A stretch of DNA of 41,834 bases from IMG/VR virus record IMGVR_UViG_3300047564_002222, positions 1 to 41,834 of that record. The stretch is one strand, 5' to 3'. A model generated the notes under the pieces. It was not told the DNA's origin and did not search any database. It was given only the letters and a program-made list of their open reading frames with translations. The position numbers and the translations under genes were made by a program. Shown piece by piece: positions 1,956-29,738 of the stretch. Source of the DNA: a virus. Every line of letters begins with the position of its first letter. Within the stretch, counting starts at the first letter, position 1.

Positions 1956-1961
1956 ACTGCT

Positions 1962-2013
1962 ATTGTAAGGGGTCCTGTAGGGGTTTGGGGTGGTCAGTGT
2001 GCCACTTCCTCAG
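1962..2013 (-). promoter_or_regulatory. Junction cassette: GGAAGTGGCACA element and -10
   Basis: The gene at 2010-2201 ends GGATGGACGCC-TGA, then AAGTGGCACA (complement 1998-2007). A C-rich stretch and TACAAT (complement 1962-1967) follow, ahead of the KxDG gene. This is one of the GC-rich versions of the repeated boundary cassette. Confidence 0.65.
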
Positions 2014-2201
2014 GCGTCCATCCCCATTGCTGCCTTCAGGGTATTGTAGGCTTTCAGATAATAGTCTGCGTCAGCAGACTTACCATCAACACGACAATCG
2101 CAAGCGAGGCAGAGCAAAGCGGTTCGGATGGTGCTCCATTGTGCCTCAGTCAGGGTAACGGTGCAGAGATCAAGGGGCAGAACGTTGGTGCGGACGGTCA
2201 T
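2010..2201 (-). CDS. Small hypothetical protein (63 aa)
   Basis: This protein of unknown function has a helical, Leu/Ala-rich centre with two cysteines (ALLCLACDCRVDGKSADADY) and a C-terminal helix (YYLKAYNTLKAAMGMDA). A CTGTAGACTAATC leader upstream is shared with the leader of the leftmost genes. Confidence 0.7.
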   Translation of the reverse strand: MTVRTNVLPLDLCTVTLTEAQWSTIRTALLCLACDCRVDGKSADADYYLKAYNTLKAAMGMDA

Positions 2202-2253
2202 GAGTTGTTTGTTGTTGATGTGATTAGTCTACAGGCAGCAGGGGGGCATCTGG

Positions 2254-2290
2254 AGGTGGCACGTGCCACCTTACCAACCGTCCACCCGCA
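2254..2290 (-). repeat. 18-bp palindrome next to an orphan gene-end element
   Basis: AGGTGGCACGTGCCACCT (2254-2271) is a perfect palindrome. Directly before it on the minus strand is GGTGGACGGTTGGTAAGG, a gene-end element. Only about 30 bases separate this from the preceding TATACT -10, so no gene lies between promoter and gene end. Confidence 0.7.
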
Positions 2291-2300
2291 GATGCGCTGA

Positions 2301-2340
2301 GTATAAAGAAAGGGGGGTCAATCGCCCCCCAGTTCTTTAT
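2301..2340 (-). terminator. Long symmetrical terminator hairpin (copy 2)
   Basis: The minus strand reads TATAAAGAACTGGGGGG, a short loop, then CCCCCC and TTTCTTTATAC. This is nearly the same as 1026-1067, again with the TAA stop of the upstream gene (2337-2684) in the outer stem. Confidence 0.75.
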
Positions 2341-2684
2341 GCAAACATCATACCATTCACGAACTCGCTCTCATTGAACACAGGAGAAGTTCCTGCCTGT
2401 CCGATGAACTTGTGAACGAACCAATTCCAGTTCCGCTGGAATACACATTCACCCTTGATTCCGTGCTCCTGAAGAATAGCATTCAGGCGGGACTTGGTGG
2501 TCTTAGATTGACATCCACCGTCAAAGATTTGCACGAAGTCTTCACCAATGGTGGCGATGTGGTTGCCGTGCAGGAACACTTTAGACTCCTGAGTTTCAGG
2601 ATCAAAGGTCACAGAAGTGTTGTCACACTGCCAGTTGCGGGAGTCACGAATGGCGGCGTTCATCTGCTGTTCGATCTTACGCAT
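2337..2684 (-). CDS. Conserved-looking phage protein (115 aa)
   Basis: The protein begins MRKIEQQMNAAIRDSRNWQC and contains VFLHGNHIATIGEDFVQIFDGG, an alternating hydrophobic pattern typical of a small beta sheet. The style matches a common cyanophage hypothetical family, but no function is known. The leader GTGCCATACTACGTTTGTTG is shared with the gene starting at 3575. Confidence 0.75.
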   Translation of the reverse strand: MRKIEQQMNAAIRDSRNWQCDNTSVTFDPETQESKVFLHGNHIATIGEDFVQIFDGGCQSKTTKSRLNAILQEHGIKGECVFQRNWNWFVHKFIGQAGTSPVFNESEFVNGMMFA

Positions 2685-2705
2685 TTGGGGGTGTCCCTCT
2701 CAACA

Positions 2706-2767
2706 AACGTAGTATGGCACGGGGGCACGGTGACCGCAACCCCCAGTGTGCCACTTGCTCAACCGTC
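2706..2767 (-). promoter_or_regulatory. Junction cassette before the 2337-2684 gene
   Basis: The minus strand reads GGACGGT-TGA-GCAAGTGGCACA (element complement 2747-2756), then GGGGGTTGCGGTCACC..GTGCCCCCG and the -10-like CATACT in the leader. The stop of the 2759-2950 gene is inside the element. Confidence 0.6.
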
Positions 2768-2950
2768 CGACACGGCAGGATCGCCTAGCAGTTCGGGATA
2801 GTATTCGTTACACTCGGTGAACAATTCTTCATCGGAATACTTTGCATAACCCTCATCCAGGTAGTCATAACAAAGTTGGGTCATTGTCTTGAGATCCATG
2901 TCATCCAGCATCTGCTGGATGAGGGCATCTTGAAGTTCGGAGCGATTCAT
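2759..2950 (-). CDS. Small acidic hypothetical protein (63 aa)
   Basis: The protein is mostly helical and acidic, with the segment YAKYSDEELFTECNEYYPEL, a pattern I associate with small cyanophage proteins; function unknown. It starts two bases after the stop of the 2953-3132 gene and ends in a gene-end element. Confidence 0.75.
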   Translation of the reverse strand: MNRSELQDALIQQMLDDMDLKTMTQLCYDYLDEGYAKYSDEELFTECNEYYPELLGDPAVSDG

Positions 2951-2952
2951 AA

Positions 2953-3132
2953 TCAGAAACGAATGATAGGATGGTCAAGATCGAGGACATCACATTCCTC
3001 AGTTGAAAACACTAACTCTACACTTTCTTGATAATACTCATCGGGTTCATCTTCAGAGCAAATAGCAACATCTTGATTCAGTTGATCTTCACTAAGTTGT
3101 TGCAGTTGTTCGAGCAGTTCTTTATACTTCAT
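2953..3132 (-). CDS. Small hypothetical protein (59 aa)
   Basis: The protein begins MKYKELLEQLQQLSEDQLNQ, a helical repeat rich in Leu and Gln, followed by an acidic section and a short beta-like end (LDLDHPIIRF). Its ATG overlaps the TGA of the preceding gene (TGATG), so it is probably translationally coupled. Confidence 0.75.
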   Translation of the reverse strand: MKYKELLEQLQQLSEDQLNQDVAICSEDEPDEYYQESVELVFSTEECDVLDLDHPIIRF

Positions 3133-3299
3133 CAGTCGTTATCAGGGTGGTTGACAATTTGATCTTCAATTTGATTTGCAAGTTCTTCCATGAACTCACG
3201 ATCTTCACCATCTTCAAACTGTGCATTGTTTCGCACAATTCGCATCAGGAAATCAATCTGCTCGTCGGTGAAATGATACTGGCGGAGAGTTTCAGTCAC
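3132..3299 (-). CDS. Small hypothetical protein (55 aa), GTG start
   Basis: The start is a GTG overlapping the upstream stop (GTGA), and its own stop overlaps the next ATG by one base. The product begins (M)TETLRQYHFTDEQIDFLMR and is acidic and helical. The four genes 3575 to 2759 form one coupled run. Confidence 0.7.
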   Translation of the reverse strand: MTETLRQYHFTDEQIDFLMRIVRNNAQFEDGEDREFMEELANQIEDQIVNHPDND

Positions 3300-3445
3300 A
3301 GTTCATCCCTCATTTCAGTGAGTTTGTCATACAGTGCAGAAACATCTACATCAAGTTTCTCACTCACGAAACTCCAATCATCGTGAAACTCAATCAGTGC
3401 CAGAATGGCATCCAGTTCTTCAAATGACAACGAAGTCAGAGTCAT
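3296..3445 (-). CDS. Small hypothetical protein (49 aa)
   Basis: The start at 3445 was chosen over an upstream in-frame ATG because the frame before it is occupied by the 42-aa gene at 3447-3575. The product begins MTLTSLSFEELDAILALIEF and ends ALYDKLTEMRDEL. It resembles in length and pattern the gene at 9158-9361 (NVHEIGVILSALQEL...ALYNKLYSLWERM), so the two may be paralogues. Confidence 0.75.
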   Translation of the reverse strand: MTLTSLSFEELDAILALIEFHDDWSFVSEKLDVDVSALYDKLTEMRDEL

Positions 3446-3446
3446 T

Positions 3447-3575
3447 TCAGTAATCGTAGTTAGCGTTGAGATACTCATTGACATCGAACTTTTCTTCATC
3501 ACGAAGTTCGGGAATGTCAAGGTCAAAGATTTCACCAGGAGCGTCTTGAATCTCCTGCCACATCTCATCAAACAT
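3447..3575 (-). CDS. Acidic mini-protein (42 aa)
   Basis: The product MFDEMWQEIQDAPGEIFDLD... ends NANYDY and is strongly acidic. It is supported by coupling: the stop is one base from the next ATG. The leader GTGCCATACTACGTTTGTTG upstream is the same as that of the 2337-2684 gene. Confidence 0.7.
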   Translation of the reverse strand: MFDEMWQEIQDAPGEIFDLDIPELRDEEKFDVNEYLNANYDY

Positions 3576-3613
3576 TTGGGAATCCCTCAACAACAAACGT
3601 AGTATGGCACGAA

Positions 3614-3874
3614 TCAGGATCGCTTGGTGCGCTTCTGTGCCACTATGGCAGGTGTCACAGCAGGGTCGGCAAAGTATACCTTACCGTGCTCTACGATAGT
3701 GTCAACGAATGCCAGAAGAGTTTGCATCATCTTGCGAACCTTTTCGTTGCCATTGTTCTCATTGTAGGCACGAATGAGAAACTGACACACAGCGACTACA
3801 ATTGCGGCAATGGTTGCTAGATTGTGAATCAGGGTGTCGATGAAAGTCCAGTAGAAAGTGTTGGCGGTTTTCAT
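3614..3874 (-). CDS. Membrane protein with one TM segment (86 aa)
   Basis: A hydrophobic segment (LIHNLATIAAIVVAVCQFLI) lies near residues 15-34, followed by a cytoplasmic-type polar region. The C-terminus PAIVAQKRTKRS is encoded by a gene-end element variant (GTGGCACAG) read in frame. Its role is unknown; an inner-membrane location is inferred. Confidence 0.7.
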   Translation of the reverse strand: MKTANTFYWTFIDTLIHNLATIAAIVVAVCQFLIRAYNENNGNEKVRKMMQTLLAFVDTIVEHGKVYFADPAVTPAIVAQKRTKRS

Positions 3875-3992
3875 AACATTAGGGTGTGGGAGGTGAGTGT
3901 AGAGAATTCCTCAACCACGAATCAAACATAACACCACCACGTGGATCAAGTCAAGGGGTTTGGTCCAGTTCTCAAACTGTCACAATGGGGGC

Positions 3993-4021
3993 TTGACATA
4001 GTCTCAAATATTGATTAGAAT
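3993..4021 (+). promoter_or_regulatory. Host-type sigma70 promoter, plus strand
   Basis: TTGACA (3993-3998), a 17-base spacer and TAGAAT (4016-4021) give a near-consensus promoter pointing right. No gene of useful length follows on the plus strand. The 464-bp gap 3875-4338 is otherwise AT-rich, with repeat boxes and the hairpins at 4077-4104. Confidence 0.6.
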
Positions 4022-4076
4022 GTGTTTGTTAACGATGAAGATGAGAAGCTAGATTATATTAATATACTTTAAAGGG

Positions 4077-4104
4077 ATGCCGAAGGCATACCCCGAAGGG
4101 GTAT
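4077..4104. other. Two adjacent stable hairpins
   Basis: ATGCC-GAA-GGCAT (4077-4089) and ATACCCC-GAA-GGGGTAT (4088-4104) are perfect stems of 5 and 7 bp with three-base loops, sharing two bases. They lie about 55 bases downstream of the plus-strand promoter at 3993-4021. Without a U-run they are not classical terminators. Confidence 0.7.
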
Positions 4105-4238
4105 AATATAAGACTCTTAAAGCACATATTCTTGCACATAAGCGAGCTCAACGTGCGCCGTATATGACAACTAGATGTATGTGTGATGTGTAATGTAAAC
4201 TAGATGTGTATGTATATTAAATCTAGTATGATGTATGA

Positions 4239-4333
4239 TCTAGTCTAGTTAATATGATATGATGTGTAATCTCGACGAGATATGAAAAATGTGTGTGCAA
4301 TCTAGTCGAGATCACACACACATCTAGTCGAGT
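4239..4333. repeat. TCTMG-N-CKAGA boxes, left cluster
   Basis: Four 11-bp near-palindromes occur: 4239-4249 (TCTAGTCTAGT), 4270-4280 (TCTCGACGAGA), 4301-4311 (TCTAGTCGAGA) and 4323-4333 (TCTAGTCGAGT). They follow the ArdA-like gene on the minus strand. The same box is repeated nine more times at 5598-5883. Confidence 0.8.
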
Positions 4334-4338
4334 TTTGA

Positions 4339-4773
4339 TTAGTAATCACTAAAGATGTGACACGAACGGTAAGATTTGCCGTCATCACAAGAGGTGAAAT
4401 CATAACGAAGGGAAGAATCCCAAGTCGCTTGCCAGTCTACAACTAAAGCAGAGGGAATACTGTAGAGATCTTCATAATATTCCTCAGCAAAATCTGCCTC
4501 AGAATCATAGCAACCACGATACTTCTCATCACATCCTTCAATGTCACTTATGCAACCCATTTCACCAATCAAAGCGTCGACGGCATCATATCCAATTGCT
4601 TCACCACAACGAACATATTCCTCATAATAGGAAACGAAGTCGTTCTCATTGTACTGGTCAATGAACTCCAGCATATCATCCAAAGCATAATTCTCATCCA
4701 GAAGTTCATCAATCTTCTCAACAGTGTCAACGTTGAGAACTTCCTTGTAGTTGGCGGTGAGAGTGATGGACAT
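4339..4773 (-). CDS. ArdA-like antirestriction protein
   Basis: This 144-aa very acidic protein resembles the ArdA family, DNA mimics that inhibit type I restriction enzymes. Family-like features are in the C-terminal half: YDSEADFAEEYYEDLYSIP followed by VVDWQATWDSSLRYDF (ArdA: ADFAEEL...IP...YIDYEAxARDL) and a helical acidic centre (YNENDFVSYYEEY). It is slightly shorter than typical ArdA (about 165-180 aa) and lacks part of the N-terminal domain. It stands alone with its own leader (GTTCTACATTACATTTG, GAGGGA) and lies in a region of acidic mini-genes and operator-like repeats, consistent with early, anti-host expression. The family call rests on recalled motif similarity. Confidence 0.65.
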   Translation of the reverse strand: MSITLTANYKEVLNVDTVEKIDELLDENYALDDMLEFIDQYNENDFVSYYEEYVRCGEAIGYDAVDALIGEMGCISDIEGCDEKYRGCYDSEADFAEEYYEDLYSIPSALVVDWQATWDSSLRYDFTSCDDGKSYRSCHIFSDY

Positions 4774-4796
4774 TGGGGTGAATCCCTCAGAACAAA

Positions 4797-4857
4797 TGTA
4801 ATGTAGAACGGATTGGGGGGCATTGCAACCCCCCTTGTGCCAGTTTCACACCTGGCA
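4797..4857 (-). terminator. Junction cassette: 8-bp gene-end hairpin and G6/C6 terminator
   Basis: The minus strand reads TGTGCCAG-GTGTGAAA-CTGGCACA, a perfect 8-bp stem whose loop holds the TGA stop of the 4846-5049 gene. A G6/C6 hairpin (4815-4834) and TACATTACA before the ArdA-like gene follow. Confidence 0.7.
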
Positions 4858-5049
4858 CATCTCCACCAGGCGGTTACGGATATCAAACAGTTCCATTTCA
4901 CTCATATCTGCAGAATCAAGATCTACAGGAGCGAACTCTTCCAGATTAATTGTACCATCAGAATAAATGGGAGCATAATACAACTCATCCCCATCTTCTT
5001 GTGAAAGAGTGAATACACAACCGTAGTGAGGCAGAGTGAGAAAAATCAT
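4846..5049 (-). CDS. Small acidic hypothetical protein (67 aa)
   Basis: The protein begins MIFLTLPHYGCVFTLSQEDG, a beta-rich start, then an acidic region and a C-terminal helix (ELFDIRNRLVEMCQV). The function is unknown. It is a single-gene unit between two boundary cassettes. Confidence 0.75.
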   Translation of the reverse strand: MIFLTLPHYGCVFTLSQEDGDELYYAPIYSDGTINLEEFAPVDLDSADMSEMELFDIRNRLVEMCQV

Positions 5050-5070
5050 CAGTGTTTGTGCTCAACGAAT

Positions 5071-5124
5071 GTAATATACCCCCTCACAGAATTCACCGCA
5101 AGGGGGTGTGTGCCAGTTTCAGGA
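5071..5124 (-). promoter_or_regulatory. Junction cassette before the 4846-5049 gene
   Basis: The gene at 5119-5262 ends CCTGAAACTGGCACA (element complement 5109-5118). A stem ACCCCCT/AGGGGGT (5078-5107) and TATATTAC (complement 5071-5078) as -10 follow. Confidence 0.65.
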
Positions 5125-5262
5125 TTGGACCACAAACTCTTCAATATAATAATCCAAAGGTAATTCTAAGCGGGATGCTTCACTTTCCCACTCATCCCAT
5201 TCTTCACGTGAAGCATTATTTAAATAATCTTCAAAAGTATAATCGAAGGCAGGTCCACACAT
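5119..5262 (-). CDS. Acidic mini-protein (47 aa), paralogue of 8567-8749
   Basis: The ATG at 5262 was chosen because TTATATTAC upstream looks like the -10 used by neighbouring genes and AGAG precedes it; an in-frame ATG at 5310 exists. The product begins MCGPAFDYTFEDYLNNASRE and ends LELPLDYYIEEFV. This end matches LNIPVSYYLAEFV of the 8567-8749 gene. Confidence 0.65.
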   Translation of the reverse strand: MCGPAFDYTFEDYLNNASREEWDEWESEASRLELPLDYYIEEFVVQS

Positions 5263-5355
5263 AACTCTTGAAGTCCGAATTGCGATTACCCAAGTAATAT
5301 AAAGCACCATTCACTGCCACGCAAGGTGTCACGTGACAGTATATGATCTGTCACA

Positions 5356-5508
5356 TTATGTGTATGGATCGAGTTCTTTGATGCTAGTGTAGACATCTTC
5401 GTCACCTTCGAGTTCTAATAACTCACGCCAATTAATACCTTCTACATCTAGGTCATCATAACACATAATGTCTAGATTTACACGTACAAGGCGTTTTTGT
5501 GCTAGCAT
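5356..5508 (-). CDS. Acidic mini-protein (50 aa)
   Basis: The protein begins MLAQKRLVRVNLDIMCYDDL and continues with WRELLELEGDEDVYTSIKEL. The pattern is familiar from cyanophage small proteins but has no known function. A TATAAT -10 (GATATAATCTAG) lies about 25 bases upstream. Confidence 0.75.
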   Translation of the reverse strand: MLAQKRLVRVNLDIMCYDDLDVEGINWRELLELEGDEDVYTSIKELDPYT

Positions 5509-14465: not shown

Positions 14466-14625
14466 TTAATCGATCCTCACATTTAGTATAAAAAATCCCG
14501 TTTACATAACAGGACTTTCCAGGTTCATAATACTTTATCACAGGTGGTTTGGGTGTGTCAACAACACAAACCACACCTGTACCATATATTAGTCCATTCA
14601 GACAAGCATTGATGATATTAACCAT
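14452..14625 (-). CDS. Small hypothetical protein (57 aa)
   Basis: The product begins MVNIINACLNGLIYGTGVVC and has four cysteines in total. Its start overlaps the preceding stop (TAATG) and its end overlaps the next start by 14 bases. Some export or membrane association is possible from the hydrophobic start. Confidence 0.65.
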   Translation of the reverse strand: MVNIINACLNGLIYGTGVVCVVDTPKPPVIKYYEPGKSCYVNGIFYTKCEDRLNGIK

Positions 14626-15446
14626 TAACACTCATCAATTCCAATAGTTTCCCTAATCCAAAATCCATCATCAGTCATAGTCCATCCATCTGCAATCATT
14701 TCATCATAGGTTTTTGTTTTTGCTAATTTATTACCTTCAACCCAAGATGGCGAATTATTAACTTTTTTAAGGAAATAAGAACCATTTCCTTGATCTACCC
14801 ACTCAATAGTATCACCTTCTTTTAGATTTGCTGCTTCCATCAAATCATCGGGAAAAAATACAAAATATTCACCACTTGCACCATCCGCTTCAACAGGAAG
14901 TTGCCACTTTACAACTTTATCCCTTTTAGCATCAAGTTGTGCCCGCTTATCATAATACTCTGCTTCACGCAGATTATATTCACGACACTTTTGTTTTTCT
15001 TGATCTGATGCTGCTTTGTCGCACATCGCATTCAGTTCTTCTTCAGAATACCGAAGTGCTTCCATATCACTATGTCCCCAAGGAGGCATAACATCCTCTA
15101 CTTTTTTAGTGTGTTTGGAATGTTCTTCAGGATAATAATTTTCTTCCCAGAAATCATTCCACGCTTTTTGACACTTGGAAGACTTATCATCTTTATCGCA
15201 TACAAAATTTTCTTTTTTCTCAACATACTCATCGTATGCTGGAATATGTCCTTTTCCATTGCCATTCAGCAGTGCAAGAAGTTCATAACAGCGAGAAGTC
15301 TGATTTTTATAACAATAATAGTTGTCTTCAACTACTTTACGAATACAATCATAAATTTCTTGTGGAGATGCTTCTGCGGAGTTTAGAGCATCTTCAACCC
15401 ATTTTTCAAGATTTTCAAGAGAATACTTCTTGTAATTAAAGTCCAT
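14625..15446 (-). CDS. Protein with AbrB-like C-terminal region (273 aa)
   Basis: The N-terminal half is helical and acidic (NLEKWVEDALNSAEASPQEI, CYELLALLNGNGKGHIPAYD). Residues about 185-232 (VVKWQLPVEADGASGEYFVF ... GDTIEWVDQGNGSYFLKKV) resemble the swapped-hairpin AbrB/MazE DNA-binding fold. The arrangement recalls a common cyanophage hypothetical. A role as a DNA-binding regulator is only suggested. The start lies 11 bases inside the end of the preceding gene. Confidence 0.7.
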   Translation of the reverse strand: MDFNYKKYSLENLEKWVEDALNSAEASPQEIYDCIRKVVEDNYYCYKNQTSRCYELLALLNGNGKGHIPAYDEYVEKKENFVCDKDDKSSKCQKAWNDFWEENYYPEEHSKHTKKVEDVMPPWGHSDMEALRYSEEELNAMCDKAASDQEKQKCREYNLREAEYYDKRAQLDAKRDKVVKWQLPVEADGASGEYFVFFPDDLMEAANLKEGDTIEWVDQGNGSYFLKKVNNSPSWVEGNKLAKTKTYDEMIADGWTMTDDGFWIRETIGIDEC

Positions 15447-15618
15447 TGAGATGATCCTCGATTGCTTGGTCCATAATAACCTGAACTTCCTTTGATGTCA
15501 ACCCATTCAACCATTTCCAATTTGGGTCTTGTGGGTCCCAATCCATTGTAAAAGACCCATCTTCATTTTGTGTTATCTTCAGAGAATCATTCTCTGGGTT
15601 TAGGTTTGGAGCATTCAT
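15436..15618 (-). CDS. Small hypothetical protein (60 aa)
   Basis: The protein contains DSLKITQNEDGSFTMDWDPQ and WKWLNGLTSKEVQVIM, a small beta-hairpin plus helix. The same kind of NGDGSFxxxW segment occurs in the AbrB-like region of the next gene (QGNGSYFLKKV), suggesting related folds. Confidence 0.75.
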   Translation of the reverse strand: MNAPNLNPENDSLKITQNEDGSFTMDWDPQDPNWKWLNGLTSKEVQVIMDQAIEDHLNGL

Positions 15619-15790
15619 TACAGTAATAACTAAATCCGTCTCTAAAATACTTTACTTTTTGAAAATTATCTTCACTAAGTGGTTTTATTGTACCACACTT
15701 ATCACAAATCCTTGTCTTTTTTGATGGACTTTCGGATTCGTTTGAGTTCTTTAAGTTCAGTCTTAATATTTTTGTAAGCAGTGTCAGCAT
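15587..15790 (-). CDS. Zinc-ribbon fragment, start uncertain
   Basis: The C-terminal part carries CDKCGTIKPLSEDNF...YYCNECSK, two CxxC pairs typical of the zinc ribbon that precedes HNH nuclease domains in phage endonucleases. The frame overlaps the 15702-15881 gene by most of its N-terminal half, and no good start lies in the non-overlapping part. It may begin at an unusual codon or be a remnant of a homing endonuclease. Confidence 0.45.
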   Translation of the reverse strand: MLTLLTKILRLNLKNSNESESPSKKTRICDKCGTIKPLSEDNFQKVKYFRDGFSYYCNECSKPKPRE

Positions 15791-15881
15791 CTAATTTTCC
15801 TCCCATTTCAAGGGCAATGATAATATCTACTCTAGTACCAAAATGTGCAAGTGCTTTTTCAAAATTATCTAGGTCATACAT
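15702..15881 (-). CDS. Small basic-tailed hypothetical protein (59 aa)
   Basis: The start at 15881 overlaps the preceding stop by 8 bases. The product begins MYDLDNFEKALAHFGTRVDI and ends in a Lys/Arg-rich helix (ELKRIRKSIKKDKDL). Confidence 0.75.
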   Translation of the reverse strand: MYDLDNFEKALAHFGTRVDIIIALEMGGKLDADTAYKNIKTELKELKRIRKSIKKDKDL

Positions 15882-16089
15882 CGTAATCAATCCTACAACG
15901 TTCTGCAAGAATATCTATGCGAGCATCTAAAGAGTTCTCCATCTCATACAAAGCATTAGACAAACCTACATTTTCTTCTTCCAATACTTTGATACGATCT
16001 TCAAGTTCTTGCAACTTTTGGTGAATTATATCATTGGGAAGAGGTTCAGGAAATCCCCACTTCTTTTGAAACCAGTTTGGGTCGCTCAT
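15874..16089 (-). CDS. Coiled-coil protein (71 aa)
   Basis: A Trp/Pro-rich start (MSDPNWFQKKWGFPEPLPND) is followed by a heptad-like coiled coil (KLQELEDRIKVLEEENVGLS). It may oligomerise. Function unknown. Confidence 0.75.
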   Translation of the reverse strand: MSDPNWFQKKWGFPEPLPNDIIHQKLQELEDRIKVLEEENVGLSNALYEMENSLDARIDILAERCRIDYDV

Positions 16090-16220
16090 AATCCAACAGA
16101 CCTCAGATAATTTTGATATGCCATAAATCGTTGAAGAGATGGAGTGACTCCAAGACTTTCACAACACCTTATGTAAGATATAAATTCGTACCAGGGCGCT
16201 GTTGAGTCTGTGTCACTCAC
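16086..16220 (-). CDS. Small hypothetical protein (44 aa), GTG start
   Basis: The GTG overlaps the upstream TGA (GTGA) and the stop overlaps the next ATG (ATGA). The product begins (M)SDTDSTAPWYEFISYIRCC. A GGGGGG stretch lies just upstream. Confidence 0.7.
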   Translation of the reverse strand: MSDTDSTAPWYEFISYIRCCESLGVTPSLQRFMAYQNYLRSVGL

Positions 16221-16426
16221 AATTTACCCCCCACTGTGCCTTCATAATTTTTGGATTCAGGGAAACCCTCTTGTTTCCATTTAAGATAAGCACGGGTTGC
16301 TGATATACACTGCTCTTCAGTGAGAGATGTGACCAACCCATTTCCTTCAAGATCCTTTGAGTCCCAGAGTCCATATCGTTTTTGCTCCACATAAAAGCAG
16401 TCGTCAATTAGTTTCTTTTCGCTCAT
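16217..16426 (-). CDS. Small hypothetical protein (69 aa)
   Basis: The product begins MSEKKLIDDCFYVEQKRYGL and ends FPESKNYEGTVGGKL. This frame was chosen over an overlapping one because it is coupled to genes on both sides. Confidence 0.7.
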   Translation of the reverse strand: MSEKKLIDDCFYVEQKRYGLWDSKDLEGNGLVTSLTEEQCISATRAYLKWKQEGFPESKNYEGTVGGKL

Positions 16427-16535
16427 TTACTTGCTTTACAGTTTCGTGAAGTTGTTTCAGTGCCTCAATGGTTTCAGGAGTTTCTTCAAAACTCCAGGAG
16501 TTGTTGTTTTTATCTACAAATGTGCGCTCAGTCAT
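16404..16535 (-). CDS. Mini-protein (43 aa)
   Basis: The product begins MTERTFVDKNNNSWSFEETP and ends in a charged helix. It overlaps the next gene by 23 bases and the previous one by 8. Confidence 0.65.
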   Translation of the reverse strand: MTERTFVDKNNNSWSFEETPETIEALKQLHETVKQVNERKETN

Positions 16536-16734
16536 ACTTATAACTCAGTTGAATGTCTTTCTTTTTAAGATTGTATCGGTCAATGTGCTTTTTACGATGT
16601 TCTTCACTCTGAAAATAGCACTTACGGGTTTCTTTTCCGTCTGTATGAATCAATTTATAAGGGAATTGGTCAAATGGAAATTCTTCTTCCCTATTTTGAG
16701 AAACCGTTGGTTCACTTTTCTTTGGTCGTCCCAT
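16528..16734 (-). CDS. Small basic hypothetical protein (68 aa)
   Basis: The protein starts MGRPKKSEPTVSQNREEEFP, an AT-hook-like GRPKK motif, and contains CYFQSEEHRKKHIDRYNLKK. DNA or RNA binding is possible but not shown. Confidence 0.75.
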   Translation of the reverse strand: MGRPKKSEPTVSQNREEEFPFDQFPYKLIHTDGKETRKCYFQSEEHRKKHIDRYNLKKKDIQLSYKYD

Positions 16735-16736
16735 AA

Positions 16737-16898
16737 TCAGGTTGGTTGCTCTACTCGTTGAGTATACACGGTATCAAACAGTTCGTCAAGTATCTCATTA
16801 CATTCTTGATACTCTAGACTATTCAGCACGGTTTTTTCAATCTGATGCCGTCGCACAGCAGTATAGATGAGTTTGTATTGTTCTTGTGTAAAATTCAT
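16737..16898 (-). CDS. Small hypothetical protein (53 aa)
   Basis: The product begins MNFTQEQYKLIYTAVRRHQI and is helical. Its ATG overlaps the upstream TAA (TAATG). Confidence 0.75.
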   Translation of the reverse strand: MNFTQEQYKLIYTAVRRHQIEKTVLNSLEYQECNEILDELFDTVYTQRVEQPT

Positions 16899-17068
16899 TA
16901 ATCGTAAAGATTTTGTTCGTGTTGTAGTTTATCTAGGTAATAATAAATGGTCCGTTCGGAATATTCAAACTCATTGAATCTTTGTGGATTTTTACTTTCC
17001 ATTTTGGTAAGCATATTAATCCAATCATAATGATGATTAATCACCATTCCATAATGTTCATCATTCAT
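16898..17068 (-). CDS. Small hypothetical protein (56 aa)
   Basis: The product begins MNDEHYGMVINHHYDWINML and ends YYYLDKLQHEQNLYD. It lies one base after the upstream stop and is coupled to the next gene. Confidence 0.75.
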   Translation of the reverse strand: MNDEHYGMVINHHYDWINMLTKMESKNPQRFNEFEYSERTIYYYLDKLQHEQNLYD

Positions 17069-17069
17069 T

Positions 17070-17246
17070 TTACTTTAAATGCTTTGGTTTTTCAGTATCA
17101 AACTGATAAAATTTAACGTCTTTCATATCAAGACACATACGAATTGTAGTATGTTCTCTTTGTTCTCTTGGTGTTCCACGATACAAATGTCTGCGTTGGT
17201 ATGCACAACACCAAATGTTATAAAAGATTTTAGATTTTTCATTCAT
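17070..17246 (-). CDS. Small basic hypothetical protein (58 aa)
   Basis: The start at 17246 gives an ATGA overlap. The product begins MNEKSKIFYNIWCCAYQRRH and is rich in Arg and His. Function unknown. Confidence 0.7.
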   Translation of the reverse strand: MNEKSKIFYNIWCCAYQRRHLYRGTPREQREHTTIRMCLDMKDVKFYQFDTEKPKHLK

Positions 17247-17455
17247 TCTTCCCAAGGACATTTTTTGTTCATAATCTCTTTGAATCTTTCTACTGCTTTT
17301 GGGTCTGGGGGTCTGTTGATTACTTCAACTAAAGCATCATATGCCTCTTTAGAAACATACACTTTTTGGGGTTTCATCCCAAGATGTTTGAGGCATTTTC
17401 TTTCGTATTGCCAGTCCTTGTACTTATACCATAAAGACAATAAAAGATTTCTCAT
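17243..17455 (-). CDS. Small protein resembling a TacA/DUF1778-type C-terminus (70 aa)
   Basis: The segment VYVSKEAYDALVEVINRPPD followed by PKAVERFKEIMNKKCPWEE resembles the C-terminal tail of DUF1778-type antitoxins. No acetyltransferase toxin lies nearby. The N-terminal part has a helical basic region. An ATG at 17467 is the alternative start; 17455 gives the usual ATGA overlap. Confidence 0.6.
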   Translation of the reverse strand: MRNLLLSLWYKYKDWQYERKCLKHLGMKPQKVYVSKEAYDALVEVINRPPDPKAVERFKEIMNKKCPWEE

Positions 17456-17751
17456 TTCTTCGTCCAAGAATACTCATACATCTGCATATAACCATCGTTT
17501 AATTCTGACCACATTGCATAAGGAAGTTTATAAGAATACTTCTTATCTCTCATCCAATAAGTCCACGCTTCCCAAGCATTTGCTATACCTTGAAATCCCC
17601 AGATAAAGTGTCTCCACTTCTCATTATCATACACCCAATCGTTGTTAGTATCAAATGGGTTCCACCTGAATTGAGGTTCAAAATCACCATCATAGCAGTA
17701 ACGATTATACTGCTTACGAGTCCAGTTCTTGTATCGTTGAAGAAGATTCAT
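17452..17751 (-). CDS. Trp/Tyr-rich hypothetical protein (99 aa)
   Basis: The protein begins MNLLQRYKNWTRKQYNRYCY and holds many aromatic residues (WRHFIWGFQGIANAWEAWTY). Function is unknown. It is the first gene of a run starting from the TATAAT box at 17775. Confidence 0.75.
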   Translation of the reverse strand: MNLLQRYKNWTRKQYNRYCYDGDFEPQFRWNPFDTNNDWVYDNEKWRHFIWGFQGIANAWEAWTYWMRDKKYSYKLPYAMWSELNDGYMQMYEYSWTKK

Positions 17752-17774
17752 AAGATGGTTGAATTCATAAGAGT

Positions 17775-17829
17775 ATTATAGCAGGTTTTTGAGGGTTCTG
17801 GTGGGGTCTTGTGCCAGTTTGAAAAGTGG
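17775..17829 (-). promoter_or_regulatory. Junction cassette after the adhesin module
   Basis: After the TAA of the LamG gene comes CACTTTTCAAACTGGCACA (element complement 17810-17819), a GACCCCACCAG..CTCAAAAACC stretch without a strong stem, then TATAAT (complement 17775-17780). Confidence 0.7.
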
Positions 17830-18531
17830 TTAGATTCCGAACCTACTGCGATTTGCGTTGAAGTTTTGTTGGATTTCTGCTGCTGTGAGTGCTCTGTCAT
17901 AAACAACTACAGAAGAAGCATTTGCATTTAAATAATTTGTTAAATGCCTCAGTCCTCCAAAATTATTTGTAGAACTTTTTACTGAATAAGAACCAGTAAA
18001 TCCATCAGTGCATTCTAATACACCATTTACATATAATTTAACTTGATTAGCAGGAGCATCTCTAACACCAATTATATAATACCAATTATTTAATGATAAT
18101 GATTTAGAAGTTCCAAGTAATTGTTGCCCATCACCACCACTTCCTCTAATATAAATGAAAGTATTTGTTCCAGAATTATTAAAAGCAATAGCAAAAAATG
18201 GGGTTGTGATATTTTCAGTATAATTTCCAAATAAAAAGAAATTTGAAGTTGTTGAGGCATTTACTTTTACAAACCCACCCCAAGTGAAAGAAGTATTTGC
18301 ATCACCAATAGAACTTAAAGAAGTAGAAAACCAATCATTAGACCCATCAAAAGCAATACTCCCACCATTCGTACTACTATAAGTCGGTCCATTTGTAAGA
18401 GTTCCAGTATTACTATTACCACTCAAATCAGTCCAAGTGGTTCCAGAACCAGGATAAGAAAGACTATCTGCAGCATCTAGACATAATACTAATCCATCTG
18501 TAATTACTCCAGGACCGTGCGAAAGTGCCAT
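17830..18531 (-). CDS. LamG/concanavalin-like tail-fibre protein (233 aa)
   Basis: The N-terminal tag MALSHGPGVITDGLVLCLDA is followed by the LamG-type lectin fold in one piece (WTDLSGNSNTGTLTNG, SIAFDGSNDWFS, VKLYVNGV). The C-terminus VVYDRALTAAEIQQNFNANR is shared with the next two fibre genes. It probably forms part of a fibre or adhesin that binds host surface sugars. It represents the uninterrupted version of a fold that carries inserts in the paralogues at 18531-19760 and 20747-22276. Confidence 0.85.
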   Translation of the reverse strand: MALSHGPGVITDGLVLCLDAADSLSYPGSGTTWTDLSGNSNTGTLTNGPTYSSTNGGSIAFDGSNDWFSTSLSSIGDANTSFTWGGFVKVNASTTSNFFLFGNYTENITTPFFAIAFNNSGTNTFIYIRGSGGDGQQLLGTSKSLSLNNWYYIIGVRDAPANQVKLYVNGVLECTDGFTGSYSVKSSTNNFGGLRHLTNYLNANASSVVVYDRALTAAEIQQNFNANRSRFGI

Positions 18532-19760
18532 TAGATTCCAAACCTCCCTCTTGATGCATTAAAGTTTTGTTGGACTTCTGCTGCGGTGAGTGCTCTGTTG
18601 TAGATTTTTCCAGAAGCAATCCTGCCAGTATATTCATAACCGCTGCCATTATAACTACCCAAAGTTACTGGATAAGTTTGTTGAACTGTTATAGAACCAG
18701 TAATTGATGTTATTGTTCTATCTAAAGACCCGTTAATATAAAAGACTATAGAACTTGAATCAGAATCCCTGACAACAGCATAATGAGTCCAAGTATTTAA
18801 TGGAACAGTCGAATTGCTGGTATGATATCCAGGAGAGTTTAATCCATAATAATATGCTCTAATTTTTCCACTATAATCTAATTCAGAATAGTATGAAGCA
18901 ACTTTTGTTATAAGCATTCCACCATAACCACCCGTAGTTTTGTATGCTGTAGGATATATAAATCCCTCTATTGTTATGGAAGCAGAAATATCTAATGTGG
19001 AACTAAACCCAAGTTCTACTCTATCATTAGTCCCATCAAAAACCAAAGCACCTAAATTATCAGCACTTTCTATTACACCATTTACAAGTTCTCCATTATT
19101 TCCTCTTCCACTTAAATCTGCCCAACCACCACCTGTTGCTACTGTGGTTCCTCTGGTAGTCGGGGTAAACCTAACAGAATTTGATGTATTATGTACCATC
19201 ATTTCGGTTACTAAAAATTTAATATCAGCAGAAAGTATTCCTATTCCAACACACTGACCAAAAGGATAAGATCCAGAAACATCAGTATCAAGTAAATACC
19301 ACTCATCCCTAATATTTACGTCTTTTGGGACAAGATACTCATTAAATGTAGTATATGTACCTCCACCTGTTCCACCACCATTATGAACTCCTAGATTTGC
19401 AATCGTTCCTTTTATCATTCTTACTTTTGCCGTTAATCTTCTAGTATTCCCATAGGTTGCATTCCAAGATGAAGAAATGCAGTCTCTAAAACTCTCATAC
19501 CCACCCGGTATTGTTCCGGCAGAAACTGTAACTTCAAAAATGGTATTTCCATTCCAAGTACCATAACTATGAGAAGTTGTGTAAGTTCCTGTGGCAGTAC
19601 CTCCCATAGGCATATGCCAAATAGAGGAGTTAGCACTACCTCCATTGGAAATATAATACATATTGTCTATAGACTGACCTCTAAAACTTTTTGAATTGGC
19701 ACCGTCAAGTGCTAATACAAGACCTGATTCGCTTACATCCGGACCACCATAAACACCCAC
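18531..19760 (-). CDS. LamG adhesin with inserted domain (409 aa)
   Basis: The chosen GTG start (GTGGGTGTTTATGG) gives MGVYGGPDVSESGLVLALDG, matching the paralogous N-termini. An ATG-less upstream extension into the previous gene is rejected. About residues 26-205 are an inserted domain (from RGQSIDNMYYISNGGS to FTPTTRGTTVATGG). The LamG fold then resumes (GWADLSGRGNNGELVNG, ALVFDGTNDRVELG) and ends in the shared C-terminus (NRALTAAEVQQNFNASRGRF). The insert looks like a jelly-roll carbohydrate-binding module. It shares one base with the downstream gene. Confidence 0.8.
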   Translation of the reverse strand: MGVYGGPDVSESGLVLALDGANSKSFRGQSIDNMYYISNGGSANSSIWHMPMGGTATGTYTTSHSYGTWNGNTIFEVTVSAGTIPGGYESFRDCISSSWNATYGNTRRLTAKVRMIKGTIANLGVHNGGGTGGGTYTTFNEYLVPKDVNIRDEWYLLDTDVSGSYPFGQCVGIGILSADIKFLVTEMMVHNTSNSVRFTPTTRGTTVATGGGWADLSGRGNNGELVNGVIESADNLGALVFDGTNDRVELGFSSTLDISASITIEGFIYPTAYKTTGGYGGMLITKVASYYSELDYSGKIRAYYYGLNSPGYHTSNSTVPLNTWTHYAVVRDSDSSSIVFYINGSLDRTITSITGSITVQQTYPVTLGSYNGSGYEYTGRIASGKIYNRALTAAEVQQNFNASRGRFGI

Positions 19761-19761
19761 T

Positions 19762-20088
19762 TTACTCTTCTCCCATTGGCATTGGTGCTGACCACTCTGG
19801 ACCATTCAGGATTTCTAAAATCTCTTCATAAGAATAAATCCCTTCAAGTGTTGTAAGTTCTTCAATGAAACTTGGTTGAGGACTTGGTGTTATAGTTTCA
19901 ATCTCATTGGTTTCTGTATTTGTGATTTCATAAGGTTCTAAACTTTCTGGAGAATCCCATTTCACAAAAGTCTTCGTGCCATCTACACTTCTGCGAAGAG
20001 TTTCTGCTGAGGTTTCACATACTGATGAGAAATCAATTTTATCAATTTCAGTTGTTGAGAAGATTGCGAAGTTTCTTGATTCGTACAT
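19762..20088 (-). CDS. Tail-fibre-associated small protein (108 aa)
   Basis: The protein begins MYESRNFAIFSTTEIDKIDF and includes ETLRRSVDGTKTFVKWDSPE and GIYSYEEILEILNGPEW, segments I recall in cyanophages between fibre genes. It may be a chaperone or structural accessory; this is not shown. A late promoter (CATAAATA, 20100-20107) lies upstream. Confidence 0.75.
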   Translation of the reverse strand: MYESRNFAIFSTTEIDKIDFSSVCETSAETLRRSVDGTKTFVKWDSPESLEPYEITNTETNEIETITPSPQPSFIEELTTLEGIYSYEEILEILNGPEWSAPMPMGEE

Positions 20089-20099
20089 AGTTTTTGAAG

Positions 20100-20107
20100 T
20101 ATTTATG
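20100..20107 (-). promoter_or_regulatory. T4-type late promoter (CATAAATA)
   Basis: CATAAATA on the minus strand lies about 12 bases before the start of the 19762-20088 gene and overlaps the end of the PA14-like gene. Confidence 0.6.
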
Positions 20108-20717
20108 GGTTACTTGGTCTAAAAAAGTAGTTTCCTGCTAATGCTCCACTGGGAGATATTGGTGTGCGAAAATGTGTTGATAAATCTGTTGTTTCTGCTA
20201 TTCCTGGACCTGCCCAACTAAAAGTAAGAGCATCTCCACCATCACCTTCTTCCATCACGATTCTAATTGGATACATCACTTTACCAGTCAAAGATACGGT
20301 ATTAGACCTTTTTGTATCTGGTTGCCCACCACCTAATAAATTATTCAAAGTTGCATTTTCTGCTGTTCTTGTTGCTTCGGGTAGTGCTAAATCTCCTATC
20401 CAAACTCCACTTCCGTCATCAGAAGATGTATAAATTGTATAAGTTCCTGTGGTTGGAGGTAAGAAATATCCAATAGCAATAAATCCATAATTTACTCCTA
20501 TTCCATTACCAAAGGATATTGAAGTCCACAAATTTACACCATATCTGTGGTCTGCTGATGGTAATCCAGTAGTTCCGGTAACATTACTACTGTCGTTTGT
20601 TGTGGTTAGTGGTAAAGTTCCTATATTACCATTCGCAATAGTTGCTCTCCAACTTCCATTAAAAAACTTCCCAGCAAGTCCAAATGTTGTGCGAGGTGTA
20701 TTGTATGTTACTCCCAT
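20103..20717 (-). CDS. PA14-like adhesin (204 aa)
   Basis: The protein starts MGVTYNTPRTTFGLAGKFFN and shows a PA14/GLEYA-type beta sandwich: GYFLPPTTGTYTIYTSSDDG, SGVWIGDLA, YPIRIVMEEGDGGDALTFSW. The ligand is probably a carbohydrate. It lies between two LamG genes and has a late promoter upstream, in line with a role in host recognition. Confidence 0.8.
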   Translation of the reverse strand: MGVTYNTPRTTFGLAGKFFNGSWRATIANGNIGTLPLTTTNDSSNVTGTTGLPSADHRYGVNLWTSISFGNGIGVNYGFIAIGYFLPPTTGTYTIYTSSDDGSGVWIGDLALPEATRTAENATLNNLLGGGQPDTKRSNTVSLTGKVMYPIRIVMEEGDGGDALTFSWAGPGIAETTDLSTHFRTPISPSGALAGNYFFRPSNP

Positions 20718-20743
20718 TCTCTCTCAATATCTCTTCGTTTTTG

Positions 20744-20751
20744 TATTTAGG
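20744..20751 (-). promoter_or_regulatory. T4-type late promoter (CCTAAATA)
   Basis: CCTAAATA on the minus strand lies about 27 bases before the start of the PA14-like gene and overlaps the stop of the preceding fibre gene. Confidence 0.5.
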
Positions 20752-22276
20752 TTAGACCGAAGCGAGATTTGAGAGCATTGTAGTTTTGTTGGATTTCTGA
20801 TTCTGTGAGTGCTCTGTTGTAATATGAAACATTAGCAATATTTCCACCCATAACTTCGCTAATACCAGAATGATTTGCCCCTATATATGGTGTGGTTGAA
20901 GTAAAATTATAATCATATGTATAAGTACTGCCTGCTTGAACTCCATTTTTGAACAATTTTAAAGTTCTTGAACCATTACTTCCACCATTTCCAATAAATG
21001 AAACATATATCCAATTACCGAAAAATGATAAATCAGCATCCTGTATTCTAAATCCATTCGCATAATATGCTAAACCATTCCCAACTCTTTTGTCTAAACC
21101 AATTACTCCATAATCAGTATTAGAACCAGTACCAGAAAAAAGTATAGAATAATCTTGTTGGGTTCTGGTGCTTTTTGCCCAAAAGTTCCAAGTAAATGCT
21201 CCTGTCCCTGGAGCAATTTGAGAACTAGATAGTGTTACATATTCATCTGTTCCATCAAAACTTACAGAACCACCATTCGCACTACTATAAGTTGGTGAGT
21301 TCACAGTAGTCCCAAAGTTATTATTCCCAGAGAAATCAGAAAGTCCAAGAATCGCAGAATCATTAGTTGCTGCTAATGGAGTAAATGTTGTACTTCCTAC
21401 TGTTGTAAATGTATGAATCGTATGACCACCAACAGAAGTTACTGTACCACCTATTGCTCTTTGGGGTCCTGGGTATCTTACGATTACTATTCCAGAACCG
21501 CCCGCAGCACCATTTTGATATAAATCTGCACTACCTCCTCCTCCACCACCTGTATTATCTACTCCACTTGTTTTACCACTCCCACTTTCATGAGGTCCAT
21601 TACCACCATTACCACCACCACCTAATCCGCCAGTTCCATATGAAGTATCATTTGTATATCCAGGATAAACACCAGCTGCACCGCCACCAGCAAACCAACC
21701 AGCAGGACTCCCCCCTACAGAAGCAAATTGTGGAAATTGAAGTCCATCGCCACCGGAGTTATTAGAGAGACCTTTAGCAGTTCCACCAGCACCTCCACCT
21801 CCACCGCCATAATTTGTTTGCCCATTATTTGAAGCACCAGAAAATCCTTGTCCAGATGTTCCAGAACCTCCAGTTGCACTTACACTCCAGTTATTTGCAC
21901 CGCCACCAGAACCACCACTACTTCCATTATTTGAATAAGAACCTCCTCCACCACCACCAATAGCAGTTAGAGAACCAAATACAGAATTTCCCCCATTTCC
22001 TCCACCATTTGGAGAAGTTCCTGCAACACTATTTCCACCACCAGCACCTCCACCACCAACAGTTACGGTTAAAGCAGAACCAGGAGTTACAGCAAAGTTG
22101 GAATTATAAATTAAACCACCAGCACCTCCACCGCCGCCATGATGAGAACCACCGCCACCACCACCAGCAACGACAAGAACTTCAACTGCTGTGAGGTTAT
22201 AGTTCTTTGGATTCGCAGCATCAAGTGCCAGAACTAATCCATCAGTGACTATGCGGGGTGAGTGCCCTAAACCCAT
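20747..22276 (-). CDS. Glycine-rich/LamG tail-fibre adhesin (509 aa)
   Basis: The tag MGLGHSPRIVTDGLVLALDA is followed by a glycine-rich module (about residues 28-310, beginning VEVLVVAGGGGGGSH and closing GSGIVIVRYPG ... IHTFTTVGSTTF). The LamG part then follows (LGLSDFSGNNNFGTTVNSPT, FDGTDEYVTLSSS) with the shared C-terminus (NRALTESEIQQNYNALKSRF). Glycine-rich modules of this type occur in phage adhesins, where polyglycine-II helices form variable loops. The module sits at the same point in the LamG fold as the insert in the 18531-19760 gene. Confidence 0.85.
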   Translation of the reverse strand: MGLGHSPRIVTDGLVLALDAANPKNYNLTAVEVLVVAGGGGGGSHHGGGGGAGGLIYNSNFAVTPGSALTVTVGGGGAGGGNSVAGTSPNGGGNGGNSVFGSLTAIGGGGGGSYSNNGSSGGSGGGANNWSVSATGGSGTSGQGFSGASNNGQTNYGGGGGGAGGTAKGLSNNSGGDGLQFPQFASVGGSPAGWFAGGGAAGVYPGYTNDTSYGTGGLGGGGNGGNGPHESGSGKTSGVDNTGGGGGGSADLYQNGAAGGSGIVIVRYPGPQRAIGGTVTSVGGHTIHTFTTVGSTTFTPLAATNDSAILGLSDFSGNNNFGTTVNSPTYSSANGGSVSFDGTDEYVTLSSSQIAPGTGAFTWNFWAKSTRTQQDYSILFSGTGSNTDYGVIGLDKRVGNGLAYYANGFRIQDADLSFFGNWIYVSFIGNGGSNGSRTLKLFKNGVQAGSTYTYDYNFTSTTPYIGANHSGISEVMGGNIANVSYYNRALTESEIQQNYNALKSRFGLT

Positions 22277-28733: not shown

Positions 28734-28790
28734 ATCATACAACAAAGGACACCTGATTACAAGTGTCCTTGTACCAATTCTTCAATTGGT
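28734..28790 (-). terminator. Junction cassette with covarying element hairpin
   Basis: The minus strand reads ACCAATT-GAAG-AATTGGT, a perfect 7-bp stem, where the usual element reads AACTGGCA. Both arms differ from the consensus in a matched way. A GGACAC/GTGTCC stem with TTT (28743-28767) and TATGAT (complement 28734-28739) follow. Confidence 0.8.
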
Positions 28791-29708
28791 CTTTTTCTTC
28801 ATCATCCCAGGAACCCAACCTTCACCAGGACATTCCATAGACCTTTTGTTATTTCCACAGCCATCATTCCACCATTTTCTACCACGATTGGAATTACTTT
28901 TACCTTTCTTCACTTCACTTTGTTTTCTTTTAGATTCTTCACACATTCCAAGAACCCAACCTTCACCAGGACATTTTATTGACTTTTTATTATTTCCACA
29001 ACCATCATTCCACCATTTACCCTGACCTGGAACCCAACCTTCACCAGGACATTCTACCGACATTATGATATTATTTTCTCCATCGTTCCACCATTTTTTA
29101 CCATAATTTGGATTTTTTTCACCTTTAACTATCTCTCTTTGGTTCATTATTATCTCTTCACTCTTCCCCAGAACCCAACCTTCACCAGGACACTCTTTAC
29201 ACAATTTATTATTTCCACAACCATCATTCCACCATTTTCTACCACTCATCACTTCACTTTGTTTTCTTCTTGTTTCTTGGGAATGTGATTTACCATATTT
29301 AGGACTATTTTCACCTTTGTTTATTTCACTTAATTTTTCTCTGGTTTCTTTAGAACGAGTTTTACCTCTGTTTCCTTCACTTATTTTTCTTCTAGTTTCT
29401 TTGGAATGTGATGTACCATATATTGAAAATTTAGTACAAGTTTGTTTTGCCTGATTAGCAAAATGAGGATTATTTGCTACATCATAATAATCGTGTAAAA
29501 TAATTTCATCTGCATATGCTTCATCTCTTGCAGAATAATTATCTTTTAGGATTATCTTTTGAGTTGGTTTGAATGTTTTGTCGTAGAAAGAACCGAAATA
29601 TCTTACATCTTCTTCTGGTAAGCATTTACAGGTTCTACTGCCGATGTATCCTCTACCATATTCCTCATAGGAATAATAGACATAGTGATACTCCTTTGGA
29701 GTCTCCAT
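28782..29708 (-). CDS. GIY-YIG-type endonuclease with NUMOD3 and four WWNDG repeats (308 aa)
   Basis: A GIY-YIG-like start (HYVYYSYEEYGRGYIGSRTC, residues 8-27) is followed by NUMOD3 helix-turn-helix units (HSKETRRKISEGNRGKTRSK and related, residues about 100-157). Four copies of a 23-residue repeat (KWWNDGCGNNK..., ending CPGEGWVxG) follow near 158, 205, 231 and 282. This repeat type occurs in phage Seg-like and other free-standing endonucleases and probably binds DNA; four copies is unusual. A late promoter TATAAATA (29739-29746) lies about 30 bases upstream. The start at 29708 is preferred over an upstream in-frame ATG at 29735. Confidence 0.8.
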   Translation of the reverse strand: METPKEYHYVYYSYEEYGRGYIGSRTCKCLPEEDVRYFGSFYDKTFKPTQKIILKDNYSARDEAYADEIILHDYYDVANNPHFANQAKQTCTKFSIYGTSHSKETRRKISEGNRGKTRSKETREKLSEINKGENSPKYGKSHSQETRRKQSEVMSGRKWWNDGCGNNKLCKECPGEGWVLGKSEEIIMNQREIVKGEKNPNYGKKWWNDGENNIIMSVECPGEGWVPGQGKWWNDGCGNNKKSIKCPGEGWVLGMCEESKRKQSEVKKGKSNSNRGRKWWNDGCGNNKRSMECPGEGWVPGMMKKKTN

Positions 29709-29738
29709 AGTTCTGCTTCTAAATTGTGTTCGCAATAC

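Follow-up and report, generated by a model that had tools for sequence, protein, structure and literature searches.

Motif-bounded exchange in the gp38 adhesin of T-even phages was reportedly described by Tetart in 1998. The fold of gp38 is a different one, not that of LamG. In the portion of PMC12529663 consulted here, the T-even gp38 adhesins are described as having hypervariable segments between conserved glycine-rich motifs, and Smug et al. 2023 (PMC10684548, also used in part) found recent domain sharing between otherwise unrelated tail fibres and spikes. As far as these portions go, motif-bounded adhesin exchange (gp38) and the domain mosaicism of receptor-binding proteins are already known. 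Here we examined three genes for LamG-domain proteins in a 41,834-nucleotide stretch of viral DNA (IMG/VR record IMGVR_UViG_3300047564_002222, positions 1 to 41,834; "the window" is this whole stretch). We observed that the LamG scaffold has a fixed port with unrelated occupants, that exchange at the level of DNA ends in conserved joints, and that the lectin core is exchanged as well.

As in gp38, variable binding segments are flanked by conserved motifs and exchange takes place at these motifs; unlike gp38, a single port takes entire, mutually unrelated domains in place of short segments, and the lectin core forms a second slot that is exchanged. When the PHROG matches of the three proteins (E up to 0.01) were compared by name, none was called gp38 or adhesin. 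The mosaicism of PMC10684548 is similar in that domains are shared by otherwise unrelated proteins; in the excerpt used, however, that survey counts shared fragments and names no LamG scaffold, fixed port or DNA joints. The Laminin_G_3 proteins of jumbo phages (PMC7824862; S-PM2, S-SKS1, immuto) belong to the same domain family and have a tail-fibre or virion context, although the consulted part of that paper reports the presence of Laminin_G_3 alone and describes neither an insertion site nor exchange. Homologues of the commonest insert family include CBM_4_9-type domains and Rcc01080 (6tb9), where the domain is part of the fibre chain, whereas in the present proteins it sits within a loop of a different lectin. 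A partial literature search found no LamG lectin port with unrelated occupants together with a second swapped slot in phages. What is new is the exchange at recurrent conserved joints and the swapping of the lectin core itself, giving two variable slots.

The three proteins (P0001, P0002 and P0003) are all encoded on the minus strand, and each has a Laminin_G_3 domain. An earlier examination of the letters of this DNA (the sequence-only reading) had taken them to be LamG paralogues, and all three exceeded the Pfam cut-off for Laminin_G_3 (62.3, 83.6 and 51.1 bits, respectively, versus 27.6). The genes, their inserts and their C-terminal islands are as follows.

17830..18531, minus strand: P0001, LamG scaffold without an insert, 233 residues (open reading frame, ORF; Laminin_G_3 E 7.3e-17).
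18436..18453, minus strand: PGSGTT turn of P0001, residues 27-32, the empty insertion site (from sequence).
17833..17901, minus strand: C-terminal island of P0001 (beginning DRALTAAEIQQNFN), the third joint (from sequence and DNA matches).
18531..19805 from the first ATG, probable start GTG at 19760, minus strand: P0002, LamG scaffold with a 186-residue insert (ORF; Laminin_G_3 E 2e-23).
19125..19682, minus strand: insert of P0002, about residues 42-227, 186 residues, beta-rich, without a Pfam family.
18534..18602, minus strand: C-terminal island of P0002 (beginning NRALTAAEVQQNFN; from sequence and DNA matches).
20747..22276, minus strand: P0003, LamG scaffold with a 285-residue glycine-rich insert, 509 residues (ORF; Laminin_G_3 E 2.1e-13, Gly_rich_2 E 2.3e-23).
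21344..22198, minus strand: insert of P0003, about residues 27-311, 285 residues, glycine-rich (PF21722 over residues 26-268).
20750..20821, minus strand: C-terminal island of P0003 (beginning NRALTESEIQQNYN; from sequence and DNA matches).

P0001 reads GLVLCLDAADSLSY-PGSGTT-WTDLSG and has, as had been claimed, no insert; the port holds the 6-residue loop PGSGTT. The insert of P0002, put at about 180 residues by the sequence-only reading, measured 186 residues, between GLVLALDGANSKSF and WADLSG, and the start that it gave (the GTG at 19760) agrees with the paralogues more closely than does the first ATG (19805). The glycine-rich module of P0003 (about 280 residues in that reading) measured 285 residues, between GLVLALDAANPKNY and LSDFSG, and its match to Gly_rich_2 (PF21722; 83.8 bits versus a curated cut-off of 24.3) covers residues 26-268. 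The shared C-terminal motif had been given correctly to within one letter. The position of the inserts needed one correction: they enter P0002 and P0003 at the same place, but this is not directly after the N-terminal GLVL tag. It lies a few residues on, where the insert replaces the PGSGTT turn. Across aligned profile columns the three cores are 17-22% identical, compared with 67-83% for strand 1 and 60-76% for the C-terminus.

We then surveyed relatives of these proteins. A 222-position profile was made from 55 insert-free relatives, and 506 matching ORFs of the fetched loci were aligned to it with a gap model that charges a flat cost for long inserts at any position. Clustering at 80% identity left 469 representatives, of which 426 with strand 1 and the C-terminus were kept and 43 dropped. 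Among these 426 non-redundant ORFs, 97 of the 111 inserts of at least 40 residues fell at profile positions 17-31, between LDAAN and DLSG, a segment that makes up 15 of the 221 profile positions (binomial p ~4e-97). Counted by ORF, such an insert was present at the port in 90/426 and elsewhere in 14/426; several of the latter (o360, o381, o411, o429, o452, o468 and o486) also have a loop-1 piece, and several of the 14 are probably a single insert split by the aligner. Two queries contained inserts, which inflates the rate of 90/426 but should leave the position unaffected. The short-loop form was the majority (333/426), and most insert-free homologues had exactly 11 residues between GLVLxLDAA and WxDLSG. 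Upstream of the inserts, strand 1 beat the 99th percentile of shuffled upstream sequence in 85/90 cases, and we therefore regard it as real.

In a second viral set, collected with insert-free queries, 10/13 long inserts were at positions 17-31; its new representatives had a loop-1 insert in 9/102 cases and an insert elsewhere in 2/102. The corresponding figures for relatives in cellular genomes were 1/62 and 6/62. The difference in loop-1 rate between viral and cellular ORFs (9/102 versus 1/62) was not significant (Fisher p 0.09), so a restriction of the port to phages was not established. The single insertion site proposed from the three window proteins is thus found in other phages also, and the observation is general beyond the window.

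To place the inserts in the fold, we used AlphaFold models of P0002 (mean predicted local distance difference test score, pLDDT, 77) and P0003 (mean pLDDT 72), whose input alignments included insert-free relatives; the port of P0001 was placed by sequence alignment. Both models aligned with domain 4 of AbnA (5hon_A): P0002 with Z 20.1 and a root-mean-square deviation (rmsd) of 2.9 over 192 aligned residues (model residues 26-416), and P0003 with Z 21.8 and rmsd 2.2 over 189 (model residues 10-500). AbnA domain 4 is one continuous 206-residue lectin domain, and it aligned across the insert in both predicted models; with the insert left out, each had a continuous lectin-type sandwich. Since one continuous domain aligns across the insert in both, GLVLxLDAAN most likely forms the first strand of the sandwich, and in the models both inserts most likely leave from the strand 1-2 connection. 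The models, once aligned, thus put the two inserts at the same structural point, as the sequence-only reading had expected, while its N-terminal tag became the first strand of the lectin fold. Foldseek and VIA matches included the receptor-binding domains of clostridial neurotoxins, sialidases and pentraxins; these reflect a common concanavalin-like fold and have no bearing on toxicity.

A linear arrangement, in which the N-terminus is a separate attachment tag and extra domains are strung between it and LamG, would suit the position of the tag near the N-terminus in all three proteins and the low confidence with which it is modelled in P0003. We consider it improbable, as the 206-residue lectin domain aligns from the tag itself (residue 26 in P0002, 10 in P0003) through the C-terminal part, the spacing in most insert-free proteins is 11 residues, and the tag of P0002 is a confident strand (E29-34, block pLDDT 85-88).

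Exchange of the inserts was examined in pairs among 429 complete ORFs, 83 of them with inserts. We observed 12 pairs in which inserts 60-98% identical stood on cores only 20-32% identical, and 27 pairs in which cores at least 55% identical had a different insert or none. One of the 27 (o14/o734) was rejected as a contig-end artefact, and 17 of the remaining 26 were examined individually. The window proteins are themselves among the examples (loci of relatives carry L numbers). The insert of P0002 was 96% identical in protein to the insert in L002/L117, and the cores of P0002 and L002 were 27% identical. The DNA shared by P0002 and L002 (713 nucleotides, 91.4%) runs from just ahead of GLVL to FDGTND and then ends, and outside it most of the P0002 gene is unlike L002. 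Conversely, the core of P0003 had 92% identity, across 146 residues, with a gene of L118 that lacks an insert, and its glycine-rich insert had 79% identity with the one in L234, where the core is 29% identical. The core of L234 (glycine-rich insert) in turn shared 71% identity with the core of L081, where the insert is CBM-like (CBM, carbohydrate-binding module). The two stretches of window DNA concerned are these.

19018..19730, minus strand: exchanged block in P0002 (GLVL, insert and DLSG..FDGTND), 91.4% identical to L002.
20709..21296, minus strand: lectin core DNA of P0003, 86.9% identical to L118 (gene without an insert).

Two sibling phages (L193 and L307) have one locus in common, and its flanks match at 99.3% over 1342 nucleotides and at 94.0% over 1297 nucleotides.

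L193 9335-12670 and L307 1247-4645: sibling-phage locus with reciprocal presence and absence of inserts in neighbouring genes.

The second LamG gene of L307 reads FDAANKKSY-LGTGTVW-TDLTKNRVVGTL and has no insert, while that of L193 reads FDAANPKSY, followed by a 208-residue LamG insert and then VVTDLTKNRVVGTL; homology between the two ends at position 23 and restarts at 30. The first LamG gene shows the opposite: L307 has the insert there and L193 has none. These siblings differ by an insert at exactly the port, and together with near-identical inserts on unrelated cores and near-identical cores with, without or with a different insert, they bear out the modular swapping at a fixed site that had been suggested from the window.

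The pairs and the unrooted counts give no direction of change, and L193/L307 by itself fits gain or loss. The insert-bearing form could then be ancestral, with the short loop arising by repeated deletion. This is very unlikely given that unrelated domain families occupy one site, that short-loop proteins predominate (333 of the 426), and that the loop-1 insert is missing in 61/62 relatives from cellular genomes. An unrooted tree of LamG cores, with 74 insert/no-insert changes, was poorly resolved and was dropped in favour of the near-identical pairs.

The occupants of the port were then compared. Ninety inserts, mostly domains of 130-310 residues, formed 14 groups at a phmmer E of 1e-4, and the groups were compared profile to profile (hhalign). 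Some singletons joined the largest group (probabilities 91.5 and 93.9) and one joined the LamG group (92.0). At least five multi-member families remained without detected similarity to one another.

CBM-like family: 52 members before joining, the commonest.
Unnamed family: 8 members.
Glycine-rich family: 7 members.
LamG itself as the insert: 6 members.
Unnamed family with a weak ILEI match: 4 members.

The profile of the CBM-like family matched the RcGTA head spike fibre Rcc01080 (6tb9; E 4.8e-21), phage structural, baseplate and tail-fibre proteins and, in the PDB, carbohydrate-binding modules of xylanase and laminarinase (E down to 2.1e-6); CBM_4_9 was matched by 8/42 of its members (E up to 0.01; best 2.1e-10). 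For the P0002-type family and one unnamed family a sequence search found no solved relative. The inserted domains are probably sugar-binding.

We also examined where the exchanged DNA begins and ends. Under strict criteria (DNA identity at least 0.88 over at least 90 nucleotides, with identity outside below 0.6; 180 collapsed pairs), 172/177 of the 3' ends of shared blocks fell at positions 29-66, of which 105 were at FDGTNDY (57-66), and 5 fell in the core. Variable segments are thus exchanged at conserved motifs, in the manner of gp38. A first, looser count (219/281 of the 3' ends below position 205 at 57-66) was replaced, as conservation of the head alone could yield it. At identical residues codon identity was 0.83 within blocks, a figure raised by the selection of blocks for DNA identity, versus 0.52 in cores, and the blocks are therefore not due to protein conservation alone. 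Among divergent paralogues at one locus, codon sharing in the head exceeded that in the core at 117/167 loci, and codon sharing in the C-terminus did so at 140/167 (some loci overlap). When the LamG genes of the window were compared by blastn with the fetched stretches of S-PM2 and S-SKS1, the only matches were the head and C-terminal islands. The head island of P0001 was 74.6% identical in nucleotides to S-PM2, 76-81% to S-SKS1 and 85% to L118.

18333..18497, minus strand: head island of P0001, GLVL to FDGSND; its DNA is common to LamG genes of other phages, that of the core is not.

The genes of L017 and L155 share the head with its insert (95.5%) and the C-terminus together with the DNA that comes after it (83%), but the core between them, at positions 64-198, has been replaced. 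The lectin core is therefore a second exchangeable slot. The sequence-only reading was right that the insert is swapped as a module; it is not the only part swapped.

It might be argued that the joints are only apparent, arising from protein conservation, and that the mosaic reflects slow divergence of the cores and no exchange: the head and C-terminus are indeed the conserved parts of the protein, and the mean codon excess between loci is small (head 1.06-1.18 versus core 1.05-1.07). This is extremely improbable in view of inserts 96-98% identical in protein next to cores 25-32% identical, DNA identities of 91-96% with abrupt ends, the codon identities given above for blocks and cores, and the presence or absence of an insert between the 99% and 94% identical flanks of the siblings.

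With the related Synechococcus phage S-SRM01, the window is loosely collinear to 16.7 kb and then again from 26.6 kb. The S-SRM01 interval matching 16.7-26.6 kb, where the LamG cluster of the window lies, contains a gene that bears the annotation tail fiber protein and encodes a Peptidase_S74 domain, so by synteny the LamG genes are located in a tail-fibre gene region. Peptidase_S74 is a chaperone domain. The same interval of S-SRM01 also has a 2OG-Fe(II) oxygenase gene. LamG relatives in Flavobacterium phage immuto are annotated as structural proteins and adjoin tail-fibre genes, and the relative in S-PM2 is annotated as a virion structural protein. PHROG 8510, which matches all three window proteins, is filed under head and packaging. 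The LamG genes are likely to encode virion proteins of the adhesin type, in a tailed phage resembling cyanophages.

Taken as a whole, we think it likely that these proteins are LamG beta-sandwich adhesins with two exchangeable slots, in which combinations of insert and core may change the glycan bound. Three parts make up the conserved frame: strand 1 (GLVLxLDAAN), the segment DLSG..FDGTND and the YNRALT..EIQQN helix at the C-terminus. The port is the turn that links strand 1 to WxDLSG; it takes either a 6-residue loop or a whole domain from one of at least five unrelated families, and the core between FDGTND and YNRALT is exchanged as well. DNA blocks containing the port have moved between genes and phages, with their ends clustered in the conserved joints, probably by homologous recombination at these joints, both among tandem paralogues and among phages infecting the same cell. 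The insert may project from the edge of the lectin. Binding of glycans by the Laminin_G_3 scaffold is predicted, and the combinations may alter the cell-surface glycan bound and hence host range or adsorption. We infer this role of the inserts in host specificity because the commonest insert family is homologous to CBMs and phage fibres and because the locus is in a tail-fibre position.

The modules could also be swapped in proteins that decorate the capsid or tail, or that bind debris, mucus or other surfaces, with no part in host specificity. The filing of PHROG 8510, the finding that the insert family seen most often also occurs in a head spike fibre, and the annotation of the immuto and S-PM2 relatives only as structural proteins would be consistent with this. 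We regard it as rather unlikely, since the neighbouring genes in immuto are annotated tail fibre, the syntenic interval of S-SRM01 has the tail fiber protein gene with its Peptidase_S74 domain, and the jumbo-phage survey, in the portion of the paper used, puts Laminin G3 domains in tail fibres as well as other virion components (PMC7824862).

Several points weigh against two-slot adhesins exchanged at joints. A capsid location is possible from the category of PHROG 8510. Strand 1 of P0003 is modelled with pLDDT below 50, and the P0003 half of the fold argument is weaker for it. The insert of P0002 had no match to a Pfam family and no sequence match to a solved structure, and its group is linked only weakly to the CBM-like family (hhalign probability 67%). 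Among the three paralogues of the window, codon identity in the head does not clearly exceed that of the core. Protein conservation extends to the head and C-terminal joints, so that block ends at these motifs are partly expected, and crossovers at the joints are indistinguishable from selection for working junctions.

Two other genes lie among the LamG genes.

19762..20088, minus strand: 108-residue companion gene, of a family found in many viral LamG loci.
20103..20717, minus strand: PA14/GLEYA carbohydrate-binding-type protein, between P0002 and P0003 (GLEYA E 8.3e-16, PA14 E 9.4e-13).

The family of the 108-residue protein occurred at 136/375 viral LamG loci versus 0/44 cellular loci (some loci overlap); as a guess, the protein is a candidate assembly helper or chaperone partner. 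The end of its gene overlaps the ATG-start form of P0002. For the PA14/GLEYA-type protein, a tblastn search of the phages collection gave no match. Positions 1-5444 of the IMG/VR contig L001 equal window positions 14534-19977 at 99.65% identity over 5444 bases, and by this identity L001 is the same population assembled a second time; its contig end falls within the 108-residue gene. Elsewhere in the window, two homing-endonuclease-like genes containing NUMOD3 are found at 28782-29735 and 40955-41533.

On a broader view, which we hold only tentatively, the conserved DNA joints could let phages of aquatic bacteria mix insert and lectin core independently, both within tandem arrays and between phages, and the LamG frame could be a reusable vehicle for glycan-binding cassettes. 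Sequence seldom shows how a phage can exchange an entire binding domain and still keep the protein intact. The natural alleles (cores without an insert, with a glycine-rich insert or with a CBM-like insert, inserts on several cores, and the sibling pair) make the contribution of the insert directly testable with recombinant proteins, and the port with its joints provides a handle for reading adhesin diversity in aquatic metagenomes. The swapping of unrelated domains at one loop may let the virus change its attachment without redesigning the whole protein.

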